This document shows, one piece after another, positions 3,011 through 21,259 of a DNA stretch of 21,417 nt. Source of the stretch: a virus; IMG/VR virus record IMGVR_UViG_3300020172_004578, positions 1 through 21,417 of that record. One strand, 5' to 3'. The notes beneath the pieces are model-generated. The model made no database searches, was not told where the DNA came from, and saw only the letters and a list, made by a program, of their open reading frames with translations. The stretch's first letter is position 1. The number at the start of each line of letters is the position of its first letter. Position numbers and translations under genes: made by a program.

Positions 3011-3586
3011 ATGTTTGATTTAATTCAAGAAGCAAAAAAAAATAAACACGGCGTAGTATTTGAAAAATATCAGATGCCAGAAATTACCTGGGAAGATATA
3101 GTAAAACACATATATAACGAGTCTACATTAGATAACCCACATTTGCGTGAAAAAGTAAAAAAGTTCCAAAACTTAGAAACTTTAGACTGTATAGGAAACT
3201 TACAGATACAAAATAAAATGTGGTTAGCTCCACAGACTAATAATATTTTTGAAGAATTTAAAGGGGTATCTGAACTAATCTATAAACTTAACCAATCAAA
3301 AGAAAATAAAGAATGTGGATACTATAATAAAAATGGACACAATTGTGATCTAGATTGGCACTATCAGGGCATAAGAATTTCTTTATCTAATAGGTTTGTT
3401 CCAGATCACCATGATCCACACGATATCTTTTATTGGCAAATAGTGGGAACTTCTTTCTGGCAAATAGATGGAGGAATAACATATACGCTAAATCCAGGAG
3501 ATCTTTTATATTTACCACTAGAAAACTCACATGCAGTATGGTGTGATGGCCCAAGAGCAGGATTGTTAATAGATAATTTGAATTAA
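3011..3586 (+). CDS. Cupin / JmjC-like protein, possible Fe(II)-dependent oxygenase
   Basis: The 191-residue protein ends in a recognisable double-stranded beta-helix. The segment FVPDHHDPHDIFYWQIVG at residues 129-146 supplies clustered His/Asp candidates for metal binding (H133, H134, D135, H137, D138). The segment LNPGDLLYLPLENSHAV at 160-176 is a classic cupin second motif with the distal His at H174. This arrangement is seen in cupins and in JmjC/cupin_8 hydroxylases that use Fe(II), 2-oxoglutarate and O2; the substrate cannot be read from the sequence. Residues 1-110 are helical and unrecognised. The gene stands alone between a terminator and the next promoter and has its own leaderless-type promoter, so it behaves like a self-contained accessory (moron) gene. 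Metal-binding cupin fold is fairly sure; hydroxylase activity is inference. Confidence 0.72.
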   Translation: MFDLIQEAKKNKHGVVFEKYQMPEITWEDIVKHIYNESTLDNPHLREKVKKFQNLETLDCIGNLQIQNKMWLAPQTNNIFEEFKGVSELIYKLNQSKENKECGYYNKNGHNCDLDWHYQGIRISLSNRFVPDHHDPHDIFYWQIVGTSFWQIDGGITYTLNPGDLLYLPLENSHAVWCDGPRAGLLIDNLN

Positions 3587-3635: not shown

Positions 3636-5996
3636 ATTAAAAATATACTAATCAAAACAGGATTAGTGGGGTTGCTTTTAACACTTTGGATGATCTTCTT
3701 TCCTGCAGATTATGCACATGCTGATGAGAATAATACAGTTCAAGTATCCCCTTCTGGAACCACAACTTCCGTTATAAATACTTCATCATCAATAATAGCT
3801 CACGTATCAACAGAAACTGCAACAGCCATAATTGAGGTAGCAAGCACTACAATTGCTCAGGCTGAAAATGATATAGAAGTTATAGAAGATAACGCAACAG
3901 CCATTGAAAGCCCTACAGAGACCATTACAGCCACTATCACAGAGGCTAAGAACTCTATTGTCCAGGCTCAAGCAGTAGTTGATGGTGCTACTGTGGCTAT
4001 AGCACACAAGGAAGAGGCAGAAACAACAACTGCTACAGCAATAGTAGAAAAAAATATTGCTATCTCTAATCTTGAAACAGCAACAGTCACCCTTCAAACA
4101 AAGACAACAGAATTCAATATTGCCAAATCAGCAGTAGACTCACAAACAGTTGTTGTTAATACTGAGACATCTGAACTTATAGACTTACAAAATACCCCAT
4201 CAAACTCTATGACATACACCACTCCTGGCTATGTTGCCCCACAAAATGTAGACACAAATATAGTAAGCACAGTGGTTTTGCCACCAATGAATGATGCTTC
4301 TACAAAAATTACAACACCATTTGATATTAAATTAGGTGGAACATTGTATGAAGGCCAAGGAAATAATAGTCAATTATATGTAACATCTAAGTCAGCACTA
4401 ACATTTGGCCAAGGAGATCATACATATTGGGATTGGCCATCAATTGCGGGTATATATGTATTTCAATCTGACTATATGAGTAGCGGTCCAGGTGCTTCTA
4501 TTACTGTTACAACAACATCAAATACCCTTGCAATTTCTTGGGATTTACATAGATTTGGAGACAACAACGGTCCAATAACCAACACTGATTTGTTTATGAT
4601 AGTAAACCCAGAATCTGGAGAATGGACTGCAACAGCAACACTTGCTGGTAATACTAGTGGACTTTATGGTGGACCTAGAACTGGTGTTAGACCAGTAACT
4701 GGACAGGCAGTGCAATCTATGACATCTGTTGGAAATGAAGAACTGCAATCACAAATAGCAGATCAACAGGTAGTAGTTCAACAAGAAACCGCTGAGTTAA
4801 ATAGTTTAATTACAATTAAAAATACTGCTTCAGCAGAAAAAACAATTGCTACTCAAAATGTAACTACAGCAACTACAGAATATAATATTAAGAACACAGC
4901 AGCGACAAATGCAATAGCTAATTTAACATATGCAACAAATGTTGCAGATCAAGCTGTAGCCTTAATTGCTCCAGCAATTGCCAGTATGAATTCTGCAGTA
5001 TCTGCAGCACAATCAATAGTTGATAATACCTTGGCCGAAGAAGAGGCAGTCAGACAAGCAGAATTAAGAGCAGAAGCACAAAGACAAGCAGCAATAGCAG
5101 AGGCAAATGCTAGAGAGGCAGAAGCAGCAGCCCAGGCTGCAGAAGAAGCAGCAGAAAAAGCTGAAGCAGATCGTATAGCAGCAGAAGAAGCAGCAGCACA
5201 GGCAGAAGCTGAGGCTGCACAAGCAGAAGCAGATAGAATTGCTGCAGAAGAAGCAGCAGCACAAGCAGCAGCTGAAGCAGCAGAAGCAGAAGAAGCAGCA
5301 GCACAAGCAGCAGCTGAAGCAGCAGAGGCAGAAGCAGAAGCTGCAAGAGAAGCAGAAGAGGCTGCAAAGGCAGAGGCAGAAGCTGCTGAAGCAGAGGCAG
5401 AGGCTGCTAGACAAGCAGAAGAAGATGCAAAAGCAGAAGCTGAAGCAAAAGAGCAAGAAGCTGAAGAAGCAAAAGATAAAGAAGAAGAATTAAAAGAAAT
5501 AGCAGAAGATGCAAAAGATGGAAAAGAATTAACTGAAGAACAAAAAGAAGTAGTTATTGAGGCATTACTTGAAAATCTTGAGCCTGGAGAATCTATTTCA
5601 GCAGCAGCAGTCAAGGCTTCTGGAATTTCATATGCTGACCTTCCACCTTCAACACCAGTTGAAGTTAGAACAGATGAAAATGGAAATGCTCTTGTAATAA
5701 CAGCAGCAGTTGCTGCAAATGTTGAATTAGTTCAAGATCCAGGTGCCCTACTAACTGCAGCATTTACAGACCCAGGGGCAGCATTAGCAGCATTAGGAAG
5801 TATTGGTGCTGATATGACAGAGGCAGAAAGAGAAGAAGCAACAGACATGGTTGTGGCAACAGTTGTGGCAGCAGGAGCAGCAATTAATGCTGCAGCAGTA
5901 GCAGCAGGTGGAGCAACTGGAGGTTCAGGTGGAGGAGGTTCTGGTGGTGGCTCAGGCGCTAACTCACCAGGTTCAAGAGGAGGAAGAAAATGGTAA
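3636..5996 (+). CDS. Large exported TolA-like coiled-coil protein with Gly-rich tail; probable ATT start
   Basis: The function is unknown. From ATT at 3636 the product has 786 aa. It has a textbook signal peptide: MKNILIKTG, then a hydrophobic core, ending near AHADE at about residue 31. The order is: Thr/Ala-rich helical region (about 40-185); a beta-rich globular domain (about 218-358) with Trp-rich HTYWDWPSIAG and LAISWDLHRFG; a second helical stretch; a long Ala/Glu coiled coil with tandem repeats (about 468-635); a small acidic domain; and a Gly/Ser tail ending in RGGRKW. GTG at 3666 is the nearest standard start, but it removes the Lys-rich n-region and leaves the Shine-Dalgarno AGGAGA (3626-3631) 34 bases away. 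From the ATT it is 4 bases away. The reading frame contains no ATG, GTG or TTG between the stop at 3588 and 3666. An adhesin, envelope protein or tail-associated protein are all possible. Confidence 0.75.
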   Translation: MKNILIKTGLVGLLLTLWMIFFPADYAHADENNTVQVSPSGTTTSVINTSSSIIAHVSTETATAIIEVASTTIAQAENDIEVIEDNATAIESPTETITATITEAKNSIVQAQAVVDGATVAIAHKEEAETTTATAIVEKNIAISNLETATVTLQTKTTEFNIAKSAVDSQTVVVNTETSELIDLQNTPSNSMTYTTPGYVAPQNVDTNIVSTVVLPPMNDASTKITTPFDIKLGGTLYEGQGNNSQLYVTSKSALTFGQGDHTYWDWPSIAGIYVFQSDYMSSGPGASITVTTTSNTLAISWDLHRFGDNNGPITNTDLFMIVNPESGEWTATATLAGNTSGLYGGPRTGVRPVTGQAVQSMTSVGNEELQSQIADQQVVVQQETAELNSLITIKNTASAEKTIATQNVTTATTEYNIKNTAATNAIANLTYATNVADQAVALIAPAIASMNSAVSAAQSIVDNTLAEEEAVRQAELRAEAQRQAAIAEANAREAEAAAQAAEEAAEKAEADRIAAEEAAAQAEAEAAQAEADRIAAEEAAAQAAAEAAEAEEAAAQAAAEAAEAEAEAAREAEEAAKAEAEAAEAEAEAARQAEEDAKAEAEAKEQEAEEAKDKEEELKEIAEDAKDGKELTEEQKEVVIEALLENLEPGESISAAAVKASGISYADLPPSTPVEVRTDENGNALVITAAVAANVELVQDPGALLTAAFTDPGAALAALGSIGADMTEAEREEATDMVVATVVAAGAAINAAAVAAGGATGGSGGGGSGGGSGANSPGSRGGRKW
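5163..5327 (+). repeat. Tandem in-frame coiled-coil repeats
   Basis: Within the large exported protein, a near-perfect 21-codon unit beginning EADRIAAEEAAAQA occurs at 5163-5225 and again from 5226. It is followed by an exact 42-base (14-codon) tandem duplication, units 5244-5285 and 5286-5327, encoding AEEAAAQAAAEAAE twice. Similar looser AEA units continue to about 5430. Such repeats expand and contract by slippage or recombination and probably set the rod length. Confidence 0.8.
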
Positions 5997-6181
5997 GAGT
6001 AATAAAAAATATAATAAAGGATCTAATAGATCAGGCATGGACTCTTCTTGGAATGTTTATTGCCTGGGTAGTATTAGACGGTAGTGCTAAAACCATAGTT
6101 GGATATGGAATAGCAGCAACAACAATCCTATGGATTATAACTAGTCCATTTAGAAATAAGGAGGAAGAAGATGGCAACTAA
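5990..6181 (+). CDS. Small membrane protein
   Basis: The protein has 63 aa and is not recognised as a named family. A hydrophobic segment at about residues 15-29 (AWTLLGMFIAWVVLD) and another at about 35-51 (TIVGYGIAATTILWIIT) suggest two membrane helices with a short turn, a basic N-terminus and an acidic C-terminus (RNKEEEDGN). The ATG at 5990 overlaps the stop of the large exported protein by 7 bases and has a strong AGGAGG Shine-Dalgarno. It in turn overlaps the next gene by 11 bases, so the two are probably translated together. The position beside a holin-like gene suggests a lysis accessory, such as a second holin or antiholin, but this is inference. Confidence 0.7.
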   Translation: MVRVIKNIIKDLIDQAWTLLGMFIAWVVLDGSAKTIVGYGIAATTILWIITSPFRNKEEEDGN

Positions 6182-6455
6182 AAAAATAACAGAAGCCCCT
6201 AAAAAAGAGAGTCCACAAAAAGCTCTTCCAAATATCTTGATGCGTATTGTGGCGGTATTCGCAGCATCAGGATTATCAGTTTTAGGAGCAGGAGCAGTAG
6301 TAGGAATTGATACAATTCAGGCAGTAATGCTTGCAGGCCTACTAGGAGTAGCAACAGTAGTTGAAAGACTGGCCAGAGCTTTTTTGGACGATGGCAGGCT
6401 TACTATCGCAGAAATAAATGATGCATTTAAGACTGTAGATAAGAAGGCTAATTAG
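6171..6455 (+). CDS. Holin-like membrane protein
   Basis: The protein has 94 aa. It has a Lys/Pro-rich cytoplasmic N-terminus (residues 1-20), then two hydrophobic helices at about 25-44 (IVAVFAASGLSVLGAGAVVG) and 48-68 (IQAVMLAGLLGVATVVERLA), and a charged C-terminus. This size and layout match small actinophage holins, which let the endolysin reach the cell wall at the end of infection. The Shine-Dalgarno GGAGG sits 5-10 bases before the ATG at 6171. It is the last gene of the transcript that begins at 3588. The endolysin is 6 kb downstream at 12478, so the lysis genes are not adjacent. A generic phage membrane protein is the alternative. Confidence 0.6.
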   Translation: MATKKITEAPKKESPQKALPNILMRIVAVFAASGLSVLGAGAVVGIDTIQAVMLAGLLGVATVVERLARAFLDDGRLTIAEINDAFKTVDKKAN

Positions 6456-6471: not shown

Positions 6472-6500
6472 TTGACATCCCCTTTGGGTAATGCTATACT
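6472..6500 (+). promoter_or_regulatory. Strong sigma-70-type promoter for the HslV-like gene
   Basis: TTGACA (6472-6477), a 17-base spacer and TATACT (6495-6500), with TG one base upstream of the -10 (TGC). This is a near-ideal housekeeping-type promoter. Transcription should begin near 6507, leaving a leader of about 22 bases that contains the Shine-Dalgarno AAAGGGG (6516-6522) ahead of the ATG at 6529. Confidence 0.85.
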
Positions 6501-6522
6501 TGAGTATAGGTATTCAAAGGGG
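6479..6522 (+). promoter_or_regulatory. Nested palindrome over the promoter, operator candidate
   Basis: Two nearly concentric perfect inverted repeats: an outer pair CCCCTTTG (6479-6486) with CAAAGGGG (6515-6522), and an inner pair CTATACT (6494-6500) with AGTATAG (6503-6509). The inner one covers the -10 box and the outer one reaches from the spacer to the Shine-Dalgarno. Only the right half of the structure is transcribed, so a DNA operator bound by a dimeric regulator, or a cruciform, is more likely than an RNA hairpin. Confidence 0.6.
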
Positions 6523-6528
6523 TTCTCC

Positions 6529-7056
6529 ATGACTTGTATTGCTGTTGTTAGACAAGATAAAACCATCTATATGGCTGGAGATCGTGGTGCTTCAACAGAA
6601 GATTCTATTTCAAGATTAAAGGCTCCCAAGGTATTTAAAATAGGATCATATCTTTTTGGATATGCGGGGACAATGGATGGAGAAAGAATCCGTCATAACT
6701 TTAAACCACCAATCTTAAAATCTAATATGAATTTAGATAAGTTTATGTATACAGACTTTCTTATTTCTCTTAGAAATTTTTATGAAAATTGGTGGGTAGA
6801 TATAACTAAAGATTCTGATTTTGGAATGTTGATTGCAGTTAAAGGTAGAATATTTGAGCATAACGCAGTTGATATGTCATTAACAGAATATGAAGACGAT
6901 TATCTTGCTATGGGTTCGGGTAGTGATTTTGCTCTTGGGTCTTTGTGGACAACACAAAATCAAAAAAATGGTAAACGTAGAGCACAGTTAGCGGTTGAAG
7001 CAGCAGTAAAATATTCAACATCCTGTATTGGACCAGTTGACGTAATTAGCATTTAA
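6529..7056 (+). CDS. HslV / proteasome beta-like N-terminal-threonine peptidase
   Basis: This 175-aa protein looks like an Ntn-hydrolase of the HslV/20S proteasome beta family, which forms self-compartmentalised proteolytic rings. It begins MTCIAVV, so removing Met exposes a catalytic Thr1. Counting from that Thr, the other family residues fall at their standard positions: D17 in AGDRGAS, K33 in APKVFKI, and S129 in MGSGSDFALG. The GYAGTMDGE segment matches the conserved Gly-rich turn after the first sheets. The length equals that of HslV (about 175 aa). An upstream in-frame TTG at 6472 lies in the -35 box and cannot be the start; ATG 6529 has AAAGGGG 6 bases upstream. No HslU-type ATPase is in the window. 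Possible roles are degradation of host or phage proteins or self-processing; the partner is unknown. Confidence 0.85.
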   Translation: MTCIAVVRQDKTIYMAGDRGASTEDSISRLKAPKVFKIGSYLFGYAGTMDGERIRHNFKPPILKSNMNLDKFMYTDFLISLRNFYENWWVDITKDSDFGMLIAVKGRIFEHNAVDMSLTEYEDDYLAMGSGSDFALGSLWTTQNQKNGKRRAQLAVEAAVKYSTSCIGPVDVISI

Positions 7057-7070: not shown

Positions 7071-7274
7071 ATGGATGAAATTAATAGTATCTTTGAAGAT
7101 GGACCAGAATTTGATGAATTTGAAATTTGGTTAAATAATGGAATTGATCGGGGATGGATAACAGAACCATTCTGTAATACACATGATGGTGATCCCTATA
7201 TGACAGAAGAAGAAATGAAAGAGTGGGATGATGGCGGAGATCCTTGCCAAGTAGTTTTTAAGATAAAGGAATAG
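7071..7274 (+). CDS. Small acidic protein, unknown function
   Basis: The protein has 67 aa and is very acidic. It contains GWITEPFCNTHDGDPYMTEEE and a later DPCQVVF, so two Cys residues (C38 and a second near the end) and a His could bind a metal or form a disulfide. The overall look (an acidic helix followed by a Cys/His segment) resembles small conserved proteins of actinophages, but I cannot name a family. It has its own leaderless-type promoter, and the next gene starts 4 bases after its stop, so it is probably co-transcribed with the metalloprotease. Confidence 0.65.
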   Translation: MDEINSIFEDGPEFDEFEIWLNNGIDRGWITEPFCNTHDGDPYMTEEEMKEWDDGGDPCQVVFKIKE

Positions 7275-7278
7275 ATAG

Positions 7279-8628
7279 ATGCATTTTTTATGTATATTTG
7301 CACTTGCAATTGGCTATACGTTGTTTTCAACACCAGTAGTAGAAGCTTCTTTAACGGTCAGCAAAACCTCATGCTCAAAATCAAATTTAAATAAGATTAA
7401 AAATAATAAAATTTGTCTTAAAAATGGCAAAGTTTATAGATGGGCAAATAAAAAAGAACCTATAAAAATTCCTATAGATATTCCCGAACCAAGCCCAACC
7501 ACAACTCCAGCACCAACCCAAATAGGTATCACTTATGCACCACCCTCAAACCCTGGCCTAAAAGTTGATGTTTGCAAAATAAATGAACAAAGTAAAGTTC
7601 GTGGCCAAACAGGAGCAGGATTTCCAGAATGGAATTCTCTAACTCCCAAAACAGGAACAGTTAAATGGGCATTAGTTCCAATAGATTTTACCGATGTTCC
7701 TGGAGAAGTCGATTTTCGATCCAGAGTAAATAATCAAATGTTGCTACTTTCTGAATGGTATGAAACTGTTAGTGAAGGCAAGTTCAAAGTTGAGTGGGTC
7801 GTTGCTAATAAGTGGACAACTCTATCTGGGAAATCAACTGATTATGAAGTTGAACAATCACAAAACCTTGATAGAAGTCCAATTGGTTTGAAAATATTCC
7901 AAGAGTCGATGGCAAAAAGTGATGAAACTTTCGACTATACAGGTGTGCAAGTAGTAAATTTCATCCTTCCACTTAAACAGAAAAATATAAAAGAAACGGT
8001 GCAAGGATTCCCGTGGGACAGCGCAGTAAAAAATTACACTACAAATGAAGGAAAGATATCTGCATTTACGATGCCTGGAGTATTCTTTAATGAAAATAAC
8101 AAAGGGTATTGGGAATACTGGGCGCATGAGTTCGGTCACGCAATAGGACTTCCCCATATTGGAACTTCTAGGGGAGTTTTTGGTCCGTTTCATCCACTCG
8201 ATATAATGGGAGATCAAAGTGGTCCGACTAAAGAGTTAAGTGGATGGCTTCGTTTCTTAGCTAGGTGGATTCCTGATGAGAAAGTCTATTGTCAGGAACA
8301 AAATAATATTAAAGAAACAGAAATAATGCTTGCACCCTTAAGCTCTTCAGAGCAAGGAATTAAAATGTCAATAATTAAACTGAGTGAATCAAAAGCATTA
8401 ATCATAGAGTCTAGAAGAGCAACTAAATTTTCTTATTCGTCATCACGGCTTAATGGAGTGCTGGTATATGTATACGATGCAACTCTTGGTCATAATGAAG
8501 AATTTTTGATTCCAGCATTAAAAACTGATAGTTCGTTACTTTACCAAGGAGACAAAGTAACAATAGAAGGCATAACTGTTGAAGTTTTGCTTAGTAAGAA
8601 TCTTGATAAAATAAAGATAAGTAAGTAA
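7279..8628 (+). CDS. Secreted metzincin-like zinc metalloprotease
   Basis: The protein has 449 aa. Residues 1-23 form a signal peptide (LCIFALAIGYTLF core, cleavage near VVEAS). A small Cys-containing segment follows (about 30-60, CSKSNLNKIKNNKIC), then a Pro/Thr-rich linker (about 65-92, EPSPTTTPAPT), then the protease. The zinc site is HEFGHAIGLPH at 283-293, matching HExxHxxGxxH with E284 catalytic. A Met-turn candidate follows at LDIMGD (M310). This pattern is that of metzincins and is close to the M6/immune-inhibitor-A type of secreted peptidase. The ATG at 7279 has AAAGGA 8 bases upstream. Export would place the enzyme outside the infected cell. Possible roles are attack on surface proteins of the host, of neighbours, or of predators; none is shown by sequence. 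Confidence 0.83.
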   Translation: MHFLCIFALAIGYTLFSTPVVEASLTVSKTSCSKSNLNKIKNNKICLKNGKVYRWANKKEPIKIPIDIPEPSPTTTPAPTQIGITYAPPSNPGLKVDVCKINEQSKVRGQTGAGFPEWNSLTPKTGTVKWALVPIDFTDVPGEVDFRSRVNNQMLLLSEWYETVSEGKFKVEWVVANKWTTLSGKSTDYEVEQSQNLDRSPIGLKIFQESMAKSDETFDYTGVQVVNFILPLKQKNIKETVQGFPWDSAVKNYTTNEGKISAFTMPGVFFNENNKGYWEYWAHEFGHAIGLPHIGTSRGVFGPFHPLDIMGDQSGPTKELSGWLRFLARWIPDEKVYCQEQNNIKETEIMLAPLSSSEQGIKMSIIKLSESKALIIESRRATKFSYSSSRLNGVLVYVYDATLGHNEEFLIPALKTDSSLLYQGDKVTIEGITVEVLLSKNLDKIKISK

Positions 8629-8818: not shown

Positions 8819-9625
8819 ATGAAACCTTTATATACTATTCCGCTTAAATCTGCGGAAGGCACAGAAAATCACCTAGCTCAATATACTGGCAAAGTAACAC
8901 TTGTTGCTAATACAACAGTTGGTTGTGGAAACGCAAATCAGATGGAAGTCTTACAATGGCTTCAAGATAAATACAACAATGATGATTTTGAAATTATTGC
9001 TATTCCAACAAATGATTACTGCGGTCCAGGAGTTACTAAGGGTAGATGGTCACAAGGAATTACATGCGGACTAGACTCAAAAGCATATGGAGAAGAAGTT
9101 TACGGAACTACATTTAAGTTTTCAGAAATGGTTACTTCTAACCCTAATACAAACATGAATGAGCAATTAGGTAATGGTCTCCCTGAAGGCGTTAATGGTC
9201 TTGGTCAAGAGATTCAACCACCTCATGAGATTTATAAAGAAATTGCAAATCAAATGGTTTCATTATCAAATATTAAAGATACTATAAAAGACGAAACTCC
9301 AGAAGGGGGATACTTATCTCCTTGGCTAAATAAAGGTTTCTACAATGGAGCTCAAATGGGTGGAAACTATGAAAAATATTTAATTGATAAAGACGGCTAT
9401 GTTGTAAAACATTTTACTTGCACAACACTAAATTATGATATAGAAAAAACTCTTAAGGCAGCACTGATTGAAGCAGGAACACCTGCGTCTATGGGTGAAG
9501 GAAGATCTATGGAAATTTTTAATGAAGAGTATGCTCTCATATGTAATGAAATAGAAAAACTAATTGCAGGAGCCAAATCTCCAATAAATCCTGCTTTTTC
9601 TGATAACCTACAACCTAGCTTTTAA
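8819..9625 (+). CDS. Glutathione-peroxidase-like thioredoxin-fold protein
   Basis: The 268-aa protein follows the glutathione peroxidase pattern. GKVTLVANTTVGCGNANQME at residues 24-43 matches the GPx active-site strand and turn, with C36 in the peroxidatic position. EIIAIPTNDYCGP at 58-70 matches the family's FPCNQF region with the Cys and Gln replaced. GGNYEKYLIDKDGYVVKHF at 181-199 matches WNFEKFLIDKDGKVV. The usual Trp of the catalytic tetrad is Gly here, though the Asn is kept (N183). It is longer than typical GPx (about 160-200 aa) because of an insert near 100-165 and a 50-residue tail. Extra cysteines at 68, 83 and 201 could serve as resolving cysteines. It could act as a thiol peroxidase or have lost activity. 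It is transcribed alone from a leaderless promoter. Confidence 0.72.
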   Translation: MKPLYTIPLKSAEGTENHLAQYTGKVTLVANTTVGCGNANQMEVLQWLQDKYNNDDFEIIAIPTNDYCGPGVTKGRWSQGITCGLDSKAYGEEVYGTTFKFSEMVTSNPNTNMNEQLGNGLPEGVNGLGQEIQPPHEIYKEIANQMVSLSNIKDTIKDETPEGGYLSPWLNKGFYNGAQMGGNYEKYLIDKDGYVVKHFTCTTLNYDIEKTLKAALIEAGTPASMGEGRSMEIFNEEYALICNEIEKLIAGAKSPINPAFSDNLQPSF

Positions 9626-9627
9626 GT

Positions 9628-9657
9628 TTGACATAAGCCCTATAATTCTGCTATAAT
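9628..9657 (+). promoter_or_regulatory. Strong promoter for the Hsp20 gene
   Basis: TTGACA (9628-9633), 18-base spacer, TATAAT (9652-9657) with an extended TG at 9649-9650. A second TATAAT at 9641-9646 is too close to the -35. Transcription should begin near 9664, giving a leader of about 50 bases. Confidence 0.85.
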
Positions 9658-9712: not shown

Positions 9713-10129
9713 ATGGTAACACAGTTTGCTATGGATCTTTTTAATGATCCCTTTTTTATTGGCTTTAACAGAGAGTTAGGCCGTCTTAATACCGCACATA
9801 AAACAAATTCACAGGCATATCCTCCATATGATCTTCTTAAATTAGATGAAGATACATATAGACTTTCAGTAGCAGTTGCTGGATTCACAAAGGATGATGT
9901 TGATGTTTCTGTAGATAATGGAACCCTTGTTATTAAAGGAGAAATTGTTGAAGTAACTGATGCTGAAGTTGTGCACAAAGGAATTGCAACCAGAAAATTC
10001 ACAAGATCTTTTGCTCTTGGCGAATATATGGAAGTAACTGGTGCTGATCTTAAAGATGGAATGCTACACGTAAGTATTGATCGTGTTGTTCCTGAAGAAA
10101 AGAAACCAAAAACAATTAAGATCAAGTAG
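9713..10129 (+). CDS. Small heat-shock protein, Hsp20 / alpha-crystallin family
   Basis: The 138-residue protein is an ATP-independent holdase chaperone that binds unfolding proteins. The alpha-crystallin domain spans about residues 38-128: PPYDLLKLDEDTYRLSVAVAGFTKDD, then VDNGTLVIKGE, then ADLKDGMLHVSI, which matches the family's closing G-x-L motif region. The C-terminus ends KTIKIK, which provides an I-x-I oligomerisation motif. The ATG at 9713 has AAAGGGG 6 bases upstream. The length equals that of typical bacterial IbpA-like proteins. Phage Hsp20 genes are known from marine and freshwater phages, where they are thought to help virion assembly or protect proteins in infection. It is a single-gene transcript with a strong promoter. 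Confidence 0.95.
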   Translation: MVTQFAMDLFNDPFFIGFNRELGRLNTAHKTNSQAYPPYDLLKLDEDTYRLSVAVAGFTKDDVDVSVDNGTLVIKGEIVEVTDAEVVHKGIATRKFTRSFALGEYMEVTGADLKDGMLHVSIDRVVPEEKKPKTIKIK

Positions 10130-11565: not shown

Positions 11566-12411
11566 ATGAGCATAGAGATTTTGGATAAAAAAAATAACTG
11601 GGGTATTAGGAAATATACAAGTATTGGCATTGATTCTATAAAAAATGAGGTAAATAATTTTATAGATGAGTGGTTTTTAGATGCCACAAGACAGGCTAGG
11701 TATACTACACACCAACAGACACAGATGTATCAGCTTAGATTTTTTAATTACTATTGGGATACTAGCAATCCTGGATACTATAGAGATGTTAATTCTTTTA
11801 AAGAAGAAAACTCTATTAAAGAGTTAAATAATATATACGACTGGCTGGAAAAAGAATATGACGGAAAAGTTATTAGATCAGAACTAATAAATATGTTTCC
11901 TAATTCTAGAGTTAGAAGGCATAGAGATAGGACTGATATGTTATTTTTATGTAGACGCATACACATACCGATAAAAACAAACAGTGAAACAGTCTTTATG
12001 GTCAATAAAGAATCCGAAAATATGGCTGAGGGATATATATATGAAATCAATAACTCAAAAATACATTCAGTATCTAATGGTGGTAGTGAAAATAGAATTC
12101 ATTTAATTATTGATGTATTGCCAAACCGTTTTGCTAGTAATGTATTTGAATCAAATAAAACTGATAATATAAACAATGATATGAAATTTGACAGTCAACG
12201 TTTTTGTGTTTTTTGTATTACTAGCGATTATTGTGTTGGCCCACATGTAGAAGAAAAGGACTTTGAGTCTTTTAGCGAATATACAGAAATGATTAAGGAT
12301 GATCTGGCAAATTTATCCTATGAAATTATAGAAAATTATGCTAAAAATAACAATAAAGACTTATCTGATTTATCTAAACTAGTCTTGGATAGTATTAAAA
12401 GTAGAGACTAA
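11566..12411 (+). CDS. Aspartyl/asparaginyl beta-hydroxylase-like Fe(II)/2OG oxygenase
   Basis: The 281-aa protein shows the Asp/Asn beta-hydroxylase (PF05118-type) pattern at residues 100-185. VRRHRDRTD gives H119 and D121 as the first two metal ligands in H-x-D form; RRIHIPIKTN contains the strand with a conserved R/H; YEINNSKIHSVSNGG gives the distal H167; and ENRIHLIIDV gives R177, which would hold 2-oxoglutarate. Members hydroxylate Asp/Asn in peptides or act on other small molecules; the phage substrate is unknown. The C-terminal 90 residues (with CVFCITSDYC, three cysteines) are not recognised. It has its own leaderless promoter and is not tied to neighbours, so it looks like an accessory gene. 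Confidence 0.8.
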   Translation: MSIEILDKKNNWGIRKYTSIGIDSIKNEVNNFIDEWFLDATRQARYTTHQQTQMYQLRFFNYYWDTSNPGYYRDVNSFKEENSIKELNNIYDWLEKEYDGKVIRSELINMFPNSRVRRHRDRTDMLFLCRRIHIPIKTNSETVFMVNKESENMAEGYIYEINNSKIHSVSNGGSENRIHLIIDVLPNRFASNVFESNKTDNINNDMKFDSQRFCVFCITSDYCVGPHVEEKDFESFSEYTEMIKDDLANLSYEIIENYAKNNNKDLSDLSKLVLDSIKSRD

Positions 12412-12421
12412 AATATACCAG

Positions 12422-12451
12422 TTGACAAAAGATATGCCTTGGTGATATAAT
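12422..12451 (+). promoter_or_regulatory. Strong promoter for the lysis/oxygenase operon
   Basis: TTGACA (12422-12427), 18-base spacer, TATAAT (12446-12451), with TG one base upstream (TGATATAAT). The expected start of transcription is near 12458. The 20-base leader carries AAAGGA (12466-12471) for the endolysin ATG at 12478, and this Shine-Dalgarno lies inside a three-codon upstream frame ATG AAA GGA TAA. Confidence 0.88.
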
Positions 12452-13263: not shown

Positions 13264-13463
13264 TGGAGTCAACCAAAAGAACATTACTTAAGACACTAAG
13301 CTGGGAAACCTTTCATCTTGTTGGTGTTGCTGGAGTAATTTATTTATTTACTGGTGAATGGGAGTATGCTAGTTTAGGTGCTCTCATTTATATAGGTTGG
13401 GAAGCTATTGGTTATTTTCTTCATGAAAGAGTATGGGCAAAATTTGGAAAAAAAATTAAGTAA
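13263..13463 (+). CDS. DUF2061-like small membrane protein
   Basis: The protein has 66 aa. The N-terminus ESTKRTLLKTLSWETFHLVG fits the DUF2061 pattern (K-R-x-x-x-K-x-x-S-W, basic followed by a hydrophobic helix). Two membrane helices are likely at about 15-31 (FHLVGVAGVIYLFTG) and 35-55 (YASLGALIYIGWEAIGYFLHE), with a basic tail AKFGKKIK. The function of the family is unknown. The ATG at 13263 overlaps the endolysin stop in TAATG and the gene's own stop overlaps the next start in the same way, so it is translationally coupled. Because it follows the endolysin it could be a holin or spanin-like lysis partner, but its family match does not require that. Confidence 0.75.
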   Translation: MESTKRTLLKTLSWETFHLVGVAGVIYLFTGEWEYASLGALIYIGWEAIGYFLHERVWAKFGKKIK

Positions 13464-14041
13464 TGGAAGTTCTTCATGACAAAATTTTTATCATAGAAAA
13501 TTTTATTTCTAGTGATTCAGCAAAATTACTTGTAGAAAAATTTTCTATAAATTTAAAGCCAACAGATCATCCTAATGTATTTTTTGGAATAAATGTTGGT
13601 GATGAATTTGCTAAAAAAATTTCAGGACAGCATAAGATAACTGAGTATAACGATCATAACAAAATTGCTGTAGATCTGCTTACATCTTTGTGCGCCAATA
13701 TGGAAAAAACCATGTCTGATATTTTTAAAAAAGATCTTGTATTAAAGACTGTTTTTTATAATCATATGACACCTGGGGCAGATAATTCATTGCATTATGA
13801 TAACAAAAGAGAAGAAGACAAATATGATTACTCTGGACTCCTATATTTAACAGATGACTATTCTGGAGGATCTCTATATTTTCCAGAACAAAATATTAAA
13901 TTACGTCCAAAAGCTGGAACTTTTATATCATTTATGGGAACAGAAGATATAAAGCATCAAGTAGAAAAAGTAATAGATGGCAATCGTGTTAATGTAATTT
14001 GTTTTTTTATAGAAAAGGAATTAAATGATTACAGTAAATAA
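13463..14041 (+). CDS. Prolyl-4-hydroxylase-like Fe(II)/2OG oxygenase
   Basis: The 192-aa protein matches the P4Hc/2OG-FeII_Oxy_3 fold. The ligand set is complete: H111 and D113 in SLHYDNK (H-x-D), H165 in DIKHQVEKV, and R175 in GNRVNVICFF for 2-oxoglutarate. GGSLYFPE at 135-142 is the conserved turn of this branch. The enzymes usually hydroxylate amino-acid side chains, often proline, and need Fe(II), 2-oxoglutarate and O2. The gene is coupled to its neighbours by TAATG at its start and by a 17-base overlap with the next gene. Together with that gene, it forms a pair of oxygenases. The substrate is unknown. Confidence 0.85.
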   Translation: MEVLHDKIFIIENFISSDSAKLLVEKFSINLKPTDHPNVFFGINVGDEFAKKISGQHKITEYNDHNKIAVDLLTSLCANMEKTMSDIFKKDLVLKTVFYNHMTPGADNSLHYDNKREEDKYDYSGLLYLTDDYSGGSLYFPEQNIKLRPKAGTFISFMGTEDIKHQVEKVIDGNRVNVICFFIEKELNDYSK

Positions 14042-14870
14042 GGTAGACTTTATATCAATAGAAGAAATTAAGTCAAATCCCGATAAGTATAGAGAAATAT
14101 ATTTAAGGGATAAAATTATTGTATTTAGAAATGCTAATTTAACCAAAGAACAACAGTCAGATCTGATGGTATTTTTTGGGGACTTGCTAAATTGGTATCC
14201 TAATTCAAAAGATCCATATATAGCAGATTATATAGAAGATCATCATAAACACATGCCAACTGAGGGATATGTTGGTAAAGATGAGCTAATGCTTTCTTGG
14301 CACACAGAGCATGTTGAAAATGAAGAAAATTCTTATAATGGGGCCACATGGAGAATGGAAAAATTTGATTGCCCAGAAGATTCTGGACATACCTATTTTG
14401 TTGATATGACAAAAATGTTTCAAGATTTAAATAAAGAAGACCAAGACTTTCTTTCTAGATGTATAAATAAACTTGAAACAGTAGAATCTACATATGTAGG
14501 AGAAGAAAGATTAGATGTTATAATTTCAAAAGATTTTAGTTGTGTAAACTCTCATCCAATAACAAAAGAAAAAACAGTTAGACTATGGCTTTTTTCACAA
14601 AACTTACAATGTTTAAGTTTATATAAAATTGATGACCGTGAACCAAATGAAGAAGAAATTACTAAACATAAAAATTTAACTCAATGGATTTGTAATCAGG
14701 TTTGGGAAAATGAAGACATAAGAATGGTTCTTAAATGGCAAGAGGGAGATCTTGCAGTTCCAGATTTGTATAAACTTGCACACTCAGTTAGTGGAGGTTT
14801 TACTAAAAATCAAAGAACTTTATCTGGACAATTTGGAAGAGCATTGCCATCAATAGAGGGAGTAATATAA
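14025..14870 (+). CDS. TauD/TfdA-like Fe(II)/2OG dioxygenase
   Basis: The 281-aa protein follows the TauD family layout. The first metal-binding pair is in LMLSWHTEHVE: H93 and E95 (H-x-E instead of the more usual H-x-D). The distal ligand is H253 in YKLAHSVSGG, preceded by WQEGDLAVPDLY, the family's W-x-x-G-D segment. Arg residues in QRTLSGQFGR (R264, R272) could bind 2-oxoglutarate. The N-terminus, LRDKIIVFRNANLTKEQQ, matches the family's opening strand and helix. The length is typical. It overlaps the preceding oxygenase by 17 bases and its stop overlaps the next start (TAATG). TauD relatives oxidise many small molecules and some free amino acids; here the substrate cannot be read. Confidence 0.8.
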   Translation: MITVNKVDFISIEEIKSNPDKYREIYLRDKIIVFRNANLTKEQQSDLMVFFGDLLNWYPNSKDPYIADYIEDHHKHMPTEGYVGKDELMLSWHTEHVENEENSYNGATWRMEKFDCPEDSGHTYFVDMTKMFQDLNKEDQDFLSRCINKLETVESTYVGEERLDVIISKDFSCVNSHPITKEKTVRLWLFSQNLQCLSLYKIDDREPNEEEITKHKNLTQWICNQVWENEDIRMVLKWQEGDLAVPDLYKLAHSVSGGFTKNQRTLSGQFGRALPSIEGVI

Positions 14871-18720: not shown

Positions 18721-19005
18721 ATGAAACAACATGTATGGAAAGACGATGCTTTATGCCTAGGTCTTGATAATGGTTTATTTTTTGATACCTATGAAGAAGA
18801 TTTAGATATAAGACCAATAATTGATTCGCTATGTAGTAGATGTCCAGTTGCAAAAAAATGTTTTGCTGTTGGAGTTTCAGCTAAAGAATGGGGAATCTGG
18901 GGCGGAGTATATCTAGAAAATGGAGAAATATCAAGAGAGTTTAATAGCCATAGAACAAAACTTGGTTGGGCAGAAACTTGGCAATCTTTAACAATGGACA
19001 AATAA
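18721..19005 (+). CDS. WhiB-family iron-sulfur transcriptional regulator
   Basis: The 94-aa protein has the four Cys that bind a [4Fe-4S] cluster in the WhiB family: C12, then C38-x-x-C41 and C47 in SLCSRCPVAKKCF. The turn GIWGG (58-62) follows, as in all WhiB proteins that contact the primary sigma factor. A short C-terminal tail (about 63-94) is only mildly basic compared with the usual AT-hook-like tail. WhiB proteins occur in Actinobacteria and their phages, where a phage copy can alter host or phage promoters; that is a strong clue to host. The ATG is 8 bases after the preceding stop, and its own stop overlaps the next start (TAATG). Cluster binding may sense O2 or NO, but this is inferred from the family. 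Confidence 0.95.
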   Translation: MKQHVWKDDALCLGLDNGLFFDTYEEDLDIRPIIDSLCSRCPVAKKCFAVGVSAKEWGIWGGVYLENGEISREFNSHRTKLGWAETWQSLTMDK

Positions 19006-19303: not shown

Positions 19304-19715
19304 TATTATTACTATAGTAGCATTTACATTAGCTGGATCCTTTGCTTTTGCATATTTATTTTCATTAATTAAAATTAATAAAATTAATAAATCATTTACA
19401 AAATTAATAATCTCTTACAAGTCATTGCAAGACTTTGTTGATAATAATAATAATATTGAATTTAAAAATGAAAATGATATTCATAAAGAAAACTTTATTA
19501 AATTTCTTTCTGATTCTCGTGACTGGTCATTTTCTTATATTGAAGATGTTCAAATTAAAATAAACAAAATAATTACAGATCTTAAATCTGATGTTGAATA
19601 TTTTGAAAAGTTTGAATCATTATATGATGGACATCCGTCTTACGAAATACTCACTAATTTTGTTAAATCATATAAAGAGTTACAGGATTTGCTTCCTAAA
19701 GAAGATTATAAATGA
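19284..19715 (+). CDS. N-terminally anchored membrane protein, unknown
   Basis: The 143-aa protein has a single N-terminal membrane helix at about 8-29 (IITIVAFTLAGSFAFAYLFSLI), then Lys-rich residues and a mostly helical cytoplasmic part with FLSDSRDWSFSYIEDVQIKINKIITDL. No family is recognised. The ATG at 19284 is the expected first base region of the mRNA; a second in-frame ATG at 19296 is also possible. The last codons overlap the halogenase start by ATGA, so the two are translationally coupled. Confidence 0.65.
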   Translation: MVILMNNIITIVAFTLAGSFAFAYLFSLIKINKINKSFTKLIISYKSLQDFVDNNNNIEFKNENDIHKENFIKFLSDSRDWSFSYIEDVQIKINKIITDLKSDVEYFEKFESLYDGHPSYEILTNFVKSYKELQDLLPKEDYK

Positions 19716-21259
19716 AGAATATTGTTGTAGTTGGTGGTGGCACAGCTGGTTGGCTAACAGCACTATATGCAAAAAGAATTTTTCCAGATGATAACATCAC
19801 CCTAATTGAAAGTGCAGAAATTGGAATCTTAGGCGCAGGAGAAGGTTCTACTAGGCAGTTAATAAAAATTTTAAGCCATTTAGATATACAGATAGAAGAC
19901 TTAATCAAAGAAACAAAGTGCACAATAAAAACTGGAATTAAGTTTACTAACTGGTCTAAAGAAAAAGACTACTATTATCATGACTTCACACATGAAGGAT
20001 CTGTTTTTGATGAAAGTTGTTTTCGTGTAGAAGATGACAATTTTGATTTTCCAATTTTAAAATATGAAAGACTTTTAAATATAGTTGAAAAAAATAAAAA
20101 CAGTTCTGTAAATGATGAGTATTCTGATAACAATCTTTTACCCTTTACTTTTTTAGAAGAAGGGCAAAATGATAAATCATCTTTGCGTTTTTGGAATAAA
20201 GAATCAGGCCATTCAATTCATTTTGATGCAAGACTATTGGCATCATTTTTATCAAAAGTAGGCGTTGCAAGAGGAATAAATTTAATTGAAAATACAATAG
20301 TAAGCATTGAAACAGATGATCAAAATAATATTGTTGCTTTAGAACTAAATGATAATAACAACATTCCAGTAGATTTTGTTTTTGATTGTAGTGGTTTTGC
20401 AAGATTAATAATTGGAAAACACTATAACTCTAAATGGCAAAGTTTTTCGGAATACCTTCCCATGAAAAGAGCATTGCCATTTTTTATAGATATTGATACA
20501 AATAATATTCCAAGCTATACAGAAGCAATTGCCATGGACTATGGATGGATGTGGAAAATACCATTACAGCATAGGTATGGATGTGGATATGTTTTTGATT
20601 CTGATTATATAAATGAAGATCAGGCTCAAGAAGAAATTGAAAAGTTTTTAGGTTTTAAACCAACCTATCCTAAAACTAATGGAAAGTCTTTTGTTTTTGA
20701 TCCAGGATGTTTTGAAGAAATCTGGATAAATAACTGTCTTGCAGTTGGATTATCTTCTGGATTTTTAGAGCCATTAGAAGCAACCTCTATCGGTCAATCA
20801 ATTTTATTATTGCAAAGATTTTTTATGCAAAAACATAAAATATTTTCTAATGATGTTGAAACAAAAAAATTATTTAATCAATATTACACTAGAGACACAA
20901 AATCAATAGTTGACTTCTTAAGTTTACATTACACAACAAATAAAGATAACTCTGATTTTTGGATTAACTTTGATAAGAATAATAAAAAATCACAAAATTT
21001 ATTAAACAATTTACATATATTGAAAAACTCAGTTCTTACAAAACTTTATGATGAAATTTGGTTTAGTAAAAATAGTTATTATATCGTTGCTTTAGGAAAT
21101 AAACTTATAGACTTTGATAATGTAAATAGTATATATGAAAAATGGGTTAATAAAAAAAGATATGATGAATTAAATAGTTTTATATTAAACAAAAAAAATA
21201 TTAGTAAAGATTTTGTTAAGCATAGTGATTTTTTAAAACATATAGGAGGATTACAATAA
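19712..21259 (+). CDS. Flavin-dependent halogenase (tryptophan-halogenase family)
   Basis: The 515-aa enzyme uses reduced FAD, O2 and halide to halogenate an electron-rich substrate. The family features are complete: the FAD-binding GGGTAGW at 8-14; catalytic K73 in TIKTGIKFTNW, which lines up with PrnA K79; the second FAD region DFVFDCSGFAR at 221-231; the W-x-W-x-I-P signature as GWMWKIPL at 278-285; and PLE at 354-356, placing E356 at the position of the catalytic Glu (PrnA E346). Related enzymes are known in cyanophages. A flavin reductase is needed for reduced FAD but is not in the window. The substrate and the halide preference cannot be read from sequence. It overlaps the preceding gene by ATGA and the next by TAATG. 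Confidence 0.93.
   Translation: MKNIVVVGGGTAGWLTALYAKRIFPDDNITLIESAEIGILGAGEGSTRQLIKILSHLDIQIEDLIKETKCTIKTGIKFTNWSKEKDYYYHDFTHEGSVFDESCFRVEDDNFDFPILKYERLLNIVEKNKNSSVNDEYSDNNLLPFTFLEEGQNDKSSLRFWNKESGHSIHFDARLLASFLSKVGVARGINLIENTIVSIETDDQNNIVALELNDNNNIPVDFVFDCSGFARLIIGKHYNSKWQSFSEYLPMKRALPFFIDIDTNNIPSYTEAIAMDYGWMWKIPLQHRYGCGYVFDSDYINEDQAQEEIEKFLGFKPTYPKTNGKSFVFDPGCFEEIWINNCLAVGLSSGFLEPLEATSIGQSILLLQRFFMQKHKIFSNDVETKKLFNQYYTRDTKSIVDFLSLHYTTNKDNSDFWINFDKNNKKSQNLLNNLHILKNSVLTKLYDEIWFSKNSYYIVALGNKLIDFDNVNSIYEKWVNKKRYDELNSFILNKKNISKDFVKHSDFLKHIGGLQ

Follow-up and report, generated by a model that had tools for sequence, protein, structure and literature searches.

We find that a virus of freshwater actinobacteria, represented by the 21,417-nt stretch of DNA analysed here (the window), encodes a compact proteasome-like peptidase next to a small acidic protein. 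Our explanation, to which we give slightly better than even odds (a probability of about 0.55), is that the enzyme is an AAH-like peptidase predicted to form a ring and to work without an unfoldase, that it is made from a promoter of its own and gated by an RNA hairpin, and that it has a linked 67-aa partner. The enzyme type is already known from other phages; what is new is its occurrence in an actinophage, its pairing with a second gene in a cassette and its hairpin-gated promoter, details that make the function testable.

A proteasome-like Ntn hydrolase with an intact active site

6529-7056, + strand: proteasome-like (group I, AAH-like) Ntn hydrolase of 175 aa, from the open reading frame, profile matches and predicted fold

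Residues of the peptidase are numbered as in the mature protein, that is, after Met1. An earlier note on this DNA had described a peptidase with Thr after Met1 and with D17, K33 and S129 at the family positions, and the 175-aa reading frame bears this out: Thr1 directly follows the initiator Met, and D17, K33 and S129 are all present. In each of 83 relatives (83/83) an ATG, GTG or TTG start codon is likewise followed immediately by Thr. A propeptide starting at the in-frame TTG at 6472 was considered and rejected, because this TTG belongs to the -35 hexamer, TTGACA (6472-6477), and the 83 relatives start directly before Thr, beginning Met-Thr. T1 and K33 are invariant across the lineage of the window. 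Position 17, which is Asp in the window, is Glu in 27 of the 83 relatives, all belonging to one clade that keeps T1 and K33 (loci L036-L046 and L063-L079), and therefore the core positions are not all fixed. The gene is under purifying selection, with dN/dS of 0.06-0.14 in the close clade and a median of 0.26 over all pairs.

With HMMER, PHROG 1040 ('peptidase HslV family') matches the product at E=1.5e-22, and the Pfam Proteasome model at E=2e-4 (21.4 bits, cut-off 22.4). The NCBIfam models for archaeal and bacterial 20S beta subunits give 28 bits, far under their cut-off, and the NCBIfam HslV model gives 25.1 bits against a curated cut-off of 157.75. The AlphaFold2 monomer model, built from a shallow alignment of 21 sequences, has a pLDDT of 78.5 and a pTM of 0.77, the remaining four models having pLDDT values of 60-67. 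Its top Foldseek match is BPH (5ovs, E=4e-11, TM 0.74-0.75), followed by HslV (TM 0.61-0.69) and 20S beta subunits; the earlier note had made its proposal depend on an Ntn fold, and such a fold is what the model predicts. The model contains all four of the helices through which rings make their contacts (H1-H4), including both helices at 51-57 and 69-87. The window peptidase thus combines a predicted beta-subunit fold with the N-terminal Thr, Asp17 and Lys33 of a proteasome-like Ntn hydrolase.

The group-I homologues comprise HslV, BPH, AAH, CPH and PPH, among which AAH and PPH are listed in phages (Fuchs et al., 2021; PMC8665760). The likeness to HslV and proteasome beta subunits suggested earlier stands, but identity as a true HslV does not: the profile score is 25 bits against 158, the model lies nearer to BPH, the features are AAH-like, and no HslU was found in the lineage records. 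PPH is ruled out because the peptidase has 175 aa as against about 140 residues and because helix H2, missing in PPH, is present. The subunit is compact in a model of moderate confidence, with H1-H4, no long insertions and no propeptide, and it has alpha-proteobacterial relatives on Rhizobium, Sinorhizobium and Mesorhizobium plasmids, with E values down to 2e-16. Length, the four helices, the missing propeptide and the rhizobial relatives all point to a resemblance to group-I AAH.

Host and distribution of homologues

68-1852, + strand: terminase large subunit (TerL), with full-length identity of 53-54% to those of Streptomyces Stanwilliamsviridae phages
18721-19005, + strand: WhiB-like regulator, from a domain match; an actinophage marker
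6171-6455, + strand: holin-like small membrane protein upstream of the peptidase gene; weak holin match, best PHROG match labelled nuclease

The window encodes WhiB together with a DUF7455 protein, and by the sequences of WhiB and TerL the virus is an actinophage. Streptomyces phage Karimac, a TerL relative, is without the peptidase. Close relatives of the peptidase occur on at least 100 IMG/VR contigs of the window's lineage, and distant ones in 159 named phage records, the majority of them from Salmonella and Escherichia phages. Homologues in actinophages were found in the cultured Planktophila phages E7 (PMC10202952; record OX376640, LanE43-AprE7) and F5, in Microbacterium phage Pumpernickel and in the lake assembly DSL-LC01. 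AAH had not been found by Fuchs et al. in any phage specific to Actinobacteria (PMC8665760), a gap that these examples fill if the AAH assignment holds. In Aeromonas phage 2L372X (L055:2501-3463) two 'peptidase HslV family' genes lie next to each other, one of AAH length (183 aa) and a shorter, PPH-like one (starting VTTIAYKNG), possibly representing two subunit types.

Outside phages, homologues of about 180 aa are found on rhizobial plasmids and further ones on Paraburkholderia plasmids; a scan of genome contigs with narrow peptide patterns confirmed no chromosomal AAH match. On a Sinorhizobium fredii plasmid (L104) the homologue lies within a nitrogen-fixation cluster, with nifQ, rpoN, nifS and nifW as neighbours.

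Gene order bears on whether the protein could be a capsid-maturation (prohead) protease or a virion protein, a role that we regard as very improbable. The homologue directly follows the portal gene in Planktophila phages E7 and F5 (E7: L098:5698-8036), as would suit such a protease, unlike in the other phages read. However, the gene of the window's lineage is flanked by holin-like and variable accessory genes, the homologues of Yersinia phage phiR201 and Pumpernickel sit among nucleotide-metabolism genes, and Streptomyces relatives with a homologous TerL or portal have no homologue. Set against Streptomyces phage Kumquat, the homologue of E7 stands out as an insertion.

No virus-encoded unfoldase found

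Neither AAA (PF00004) nor AAA_2 (PF07724) domains were found in the 21,417 nt of the window, in agreement with the earlier statement that it holds no HslU-like or other AAA+ partner. The further search for HslU that had been suggested gave the same answer: in 17 longer lineage records of up to 113 kb no AAA_2 or HslU match and no HslU/ClpX-type unfoldase was found, and PF00004 produced sub-cutoff matches in 5/17 of them and none above the cut-off. As these records are fragments, which may not reach an unfoldase gene located far away, and as hosts have housekeeping unfoldases, the evidence for the absence of a phage-encoded unfoldase is strong but not final.

Borrowing of a host unfoldase was also raised in the earlier note. 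Borrowing of HslU fits poorly with an actinobacterial host: Table 1 of Fuchs et al. (PMC8665760) gives no HslV for Actinobacteria and the virus is an actinophage, so that HslU is an unlikely partner, while other host unfoldases are possible ones. Under that alternative, which we think unlikely though worth weighing, the peptidase would be a proteolytic core that docks onto a host AAA+ protein (ClpX, ClpC, FtsH or the proteasome ATPase of actinobacteria, ARC/Mpa) and redirects host degradation. HslV and the 20S subunits, to which it is related, depend on AAA+ partners, and AAA_2 or AAA proteins were present in all bacteria tested as controls. Yet proteins of the same type occur in phages of Planktophila, Microbacterium, Vibrio, Moorella and Tenacibaculum, and such diverse hosts, with differing unfoldases, argue against one specific unfoldase; a co-occurring AAA+ protein was found neither for AAH by Fuchs et al. 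(PMC8665760) nor in the lineage records. For BPH, too, no unfoldase partner was found by genomics or by pull-down (PMC5777263). After purification, BPH cleaved neither casein nor any peptide that was tried (PMC5777263), and an intact active site is therefore no guarantee of peptidase activity.

A small acidic protein linked to the peptidase

7071-7274, + strand: 67-aa acidic protein directly 3' of the peptidase gene; pI 4.05, charge about -16

The family to which this protein belongs has the conserved motif WI(T/S)xP(F/Y)C(N/H)THDG...EE..EW..GGDPC, and a member lies near the peptidase gene in 68 of the 83 peptidase loci. The linkage is also seen from the other side. When IMG/VR was searched with the 67-aa reading frame alone, the peptidase was present in 80/80 loci (best 80 matches), and with a divergent 67-aa query it was present in 78 of 79 informative loci (best 80 matches; one locus is truncated, and L251 is without the peptidase). 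The two queries combined link the peptidase in 158/159 loci (best 80 matches per query), although these sets share many of their contigs with the peptidase searches. The two genes are separated by 10-29 nt in the divergent-query set; in the first-query set 13 loci have gaps of 600-1050 nt, which suggests inserted genes. Fuchs et al. (2021) reported no informative gene context for AAH (PMC8665760).

E7, DSL-LC01 and Pumpernickel have no member of the family, and the small protein is therefore a partner of the window's lineage and not of all AAH. Within the peptidase loci, L015-L017 have the peptidase without the small reading frame directly downstream. Common descent of the phage group could account for part of the linkage. 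Homology to Pup was rejected, as the C-terminal GGQ or GGE that serves Pup in conjugation is missing from every aligned member and Pfam gives no match; tblastn against named phages also gave no match, to which low-complexity filtering may contribute. AlphaFold2 on the 67-aa protein alone was uninformative (pLDDT 49).

A tightly linked small protein is what might be expected if the enzyme were no general protease at all, acting instead as a monomer or small oligomer in the manner of an Ntn ligase or a specific processing enzyme, possibly on the 67-aa protein or another phage protein. Connectase provides the precedent of a proteasome-like protein that acts as a specific ligase (PMC8665760), and the Glu at position 17 throughout one clade would also suit a specialised activity. 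We nevertheless consider this improbable, given that all four ring-contact helices are present in the model and that the peptidase of L015-L017 has no adjoining downstream small gene.

A promoter that carries a predicted Shine-Dalgarno-pairing hairpin

6472-6500, + strand: near-consensus sigma70-type promoter with TTGACA (6472-6477), a 17-nt spacer and TATACT (6495-6500), conserved in most relatives
6479-6522, + strand: inverted repeat/RNA hairpin, with outer arms 6479-6490 and 6511-6522 and an inner stem 6494-6499/6504-6509
6516-6522, + strand: Shine-Dalgarno sequence AAAGGGG, predicted to be paired in read-through RNA

The inverted repeat encloses the -10 box, and the Shine-Dalgarno sequence sits in its 3' arm. 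In read-through RNA the Shine-Dalgarno has a predicted unpaired probability of about 0, as compared with 0.24-0.99 in RNA that begins at the inferred start near 6507; by computation, then, the ribosome-binding site is paired in the read-through transcript and not in the promoter's own. Pairing between the Shine-Dalgarno and the -35/-10 spacer was found in 34 of 43 distinct promoter regions of the lineage, against 15/55 for control promoter-like regions before other genes, where the strongest of the 15 pairings mostly belong to genes inserted between the peptidase promoter and the peptidase gene. Shuffling the spacer gave p<=0.02 in 32/44 promoter regions. When the hairpin was aligned, 95% and 98% of cells were paired, against 35-62% and 37-59% when the arms were slid, and 14 and 8 cells were changed on both sides, against shuffled means of 5.7 and 2.2 (0/500 shuffles); kinship of the sequences inflates the shuffle test, and the slide test less. 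The loci L018-L035 have the promoter, and no significant Shine-Dalgarno-pairing hairpin was found in them. The pair counts thus show covariation in the hairpin, from which an effect on translation is predicted.

The repeat might instead be a DNA operator for a repressor and not an RNA switch. It does enclose the -10 box, and paired changes are also seen in DNA palindromes. But the arms differ in sequence from clade to clade, they often contain G-U pairs and internal loops with sides of unequal length, and what stays constant is the Shine-Dalgarno in the 3' arm, all of which make an operator a rather unlikely reading.

Two other promoters of the window, at 9628-9657 and 12422-12451, are perfect 12/12 matches to the sigma70 consensus with a spacer of 18 and TG before the -10 box; they precede Hsp20 and the endolysin, respectively. 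A hairpin that pairs the Shine-Dalgarno, though more weakly, is also predicted at the promoter of the endolysin gene (12478).

Other genes of the window

The peptidase had been placed in a proteostasis/redox group with the Hsp20 at 9713 and the GPx-like protein at 8819. The wider comparison gave no support for this grouping: Hsp20 is found in 12/17 lineage records and in 0/14 other phages carrying a peptidase homologue, which removes it as a general partner, and the linked gene is the unannotated 67-aa reading frame. An Hsp20 gene lies near the Rhizobium etli homologue, and no counterpart is found beside the homologue on four other plasmids read.

Just downstream of the cassette, 7279-8628 encodes a possibly secreted M6/M66-like metallopeptidase with an HEFGH motif, whose cluster is confined to 6 loci. 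A long Glu/Ala-rich, coiled-coil-like protein with EAEAAEAE repeats and a signal-like N-terminus is encoded at 3666-5996, and its family occurs in 62 loci. The window further encodes a tryptophan-halogenase family protein (19712-21259, Pfam 1e-97), and a halogenase has been reported for actinophage DSL-LC01 (PMC10611076). Four genes are of oxygenase/cupin type (JmjC/cupin, Asp/Asn hydroxylase, 2OG-Fe(II), TauD), at 3011-3586, 11566-12411, 13463-14041 and 14025-14870.

Discussion

We propose that the peptidase likely serves as an unfoldase-independent ring peptidase, a role predicted from its sequence and modelled fold. Host methionine aminopeptidase would remove Met1 and expose Thr1 to give the active enzyme, which would self-assemble into a ring like that of BPH or HslV and, with no AAA+ unfoldase dedicated to it, cleave peptides or proteins that are unfolded beforehand. 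The enzyme would be made from its own sigma70-type promoter, and the operon of the upstream holin-like gene may supply read-through RNA that the hairpin silences. If the hairpin hides the ribosome-binding site in that RNA, dosage and timing would be set by the peptidase's own promoter. The 67-aa protein, for which the linkage is the evidence, is probably an adaptor, an inhibitor or a substrate. For the phage, the gain may lie in amino acids, in clearing host or misfolded proteins, or in removing a defence factor.

A more specific and decidedly speculative version is that the peptidase and the 67-aa protein form an unfoldase-free module of actinophages for targeted degradation, or one resembling a toxin and its antidote, with the small protein loading, tagging or restraining the ring and the hairpin silencing the module except when it is transcribed from its own promoter.

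The tight linkage to a partner gene and the conservation of a putative translational switch provide concrete handles on function. Homologues are present in the cultured phages E7 and F5, in Pumpernickel and in E. coli and Salmonella phages, so the enzyme family is directly open to knock-outs and biochemistry. Synthetic constructs are needed for the partner and the switch, which were found only in the uncultured lineage.

Comparison with known systems

The closest known type is AAH/PHROG 1040, with which the window peptidase shares a group-I subunit with T1, D17 and K33, helices H1-H4, no propeptide, an occurrence in phages and the lack of a known AAA+ partner. It differs in its actinophage hosts, the linked 67-aa acidic gene, the hairpin-gated promoter and the D17E subclade, and it is likened to AAH by its features. 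BPH (5ovs, 5ovt, 5ovu) is the best structural match (TM 0.74-0.75) and also has no known unfoldase; however, identity is about 20%, and BPH is a heptameric double ring whereas the window protein is phage-borne and known as a monomer model. With HslV of HslVU the peptidase has fold, length and catalytic residues in common, but its score of 25 bits is far under the cut-off of 158, and no HslU was found with it. The regulatory arrangement recalls that of phage T4, in which hairpins hide the ribosome-binding site of gene e, soc and I-TevI in read-through RNA (PMC2988022). In both cases the promoter is placed such that its own transcript is without the 5' arm of the hairpin; the promoter in the window is of sigma70 consensus, whereas that in T4 is a late promoter, and the gene and the phage are unrelated.
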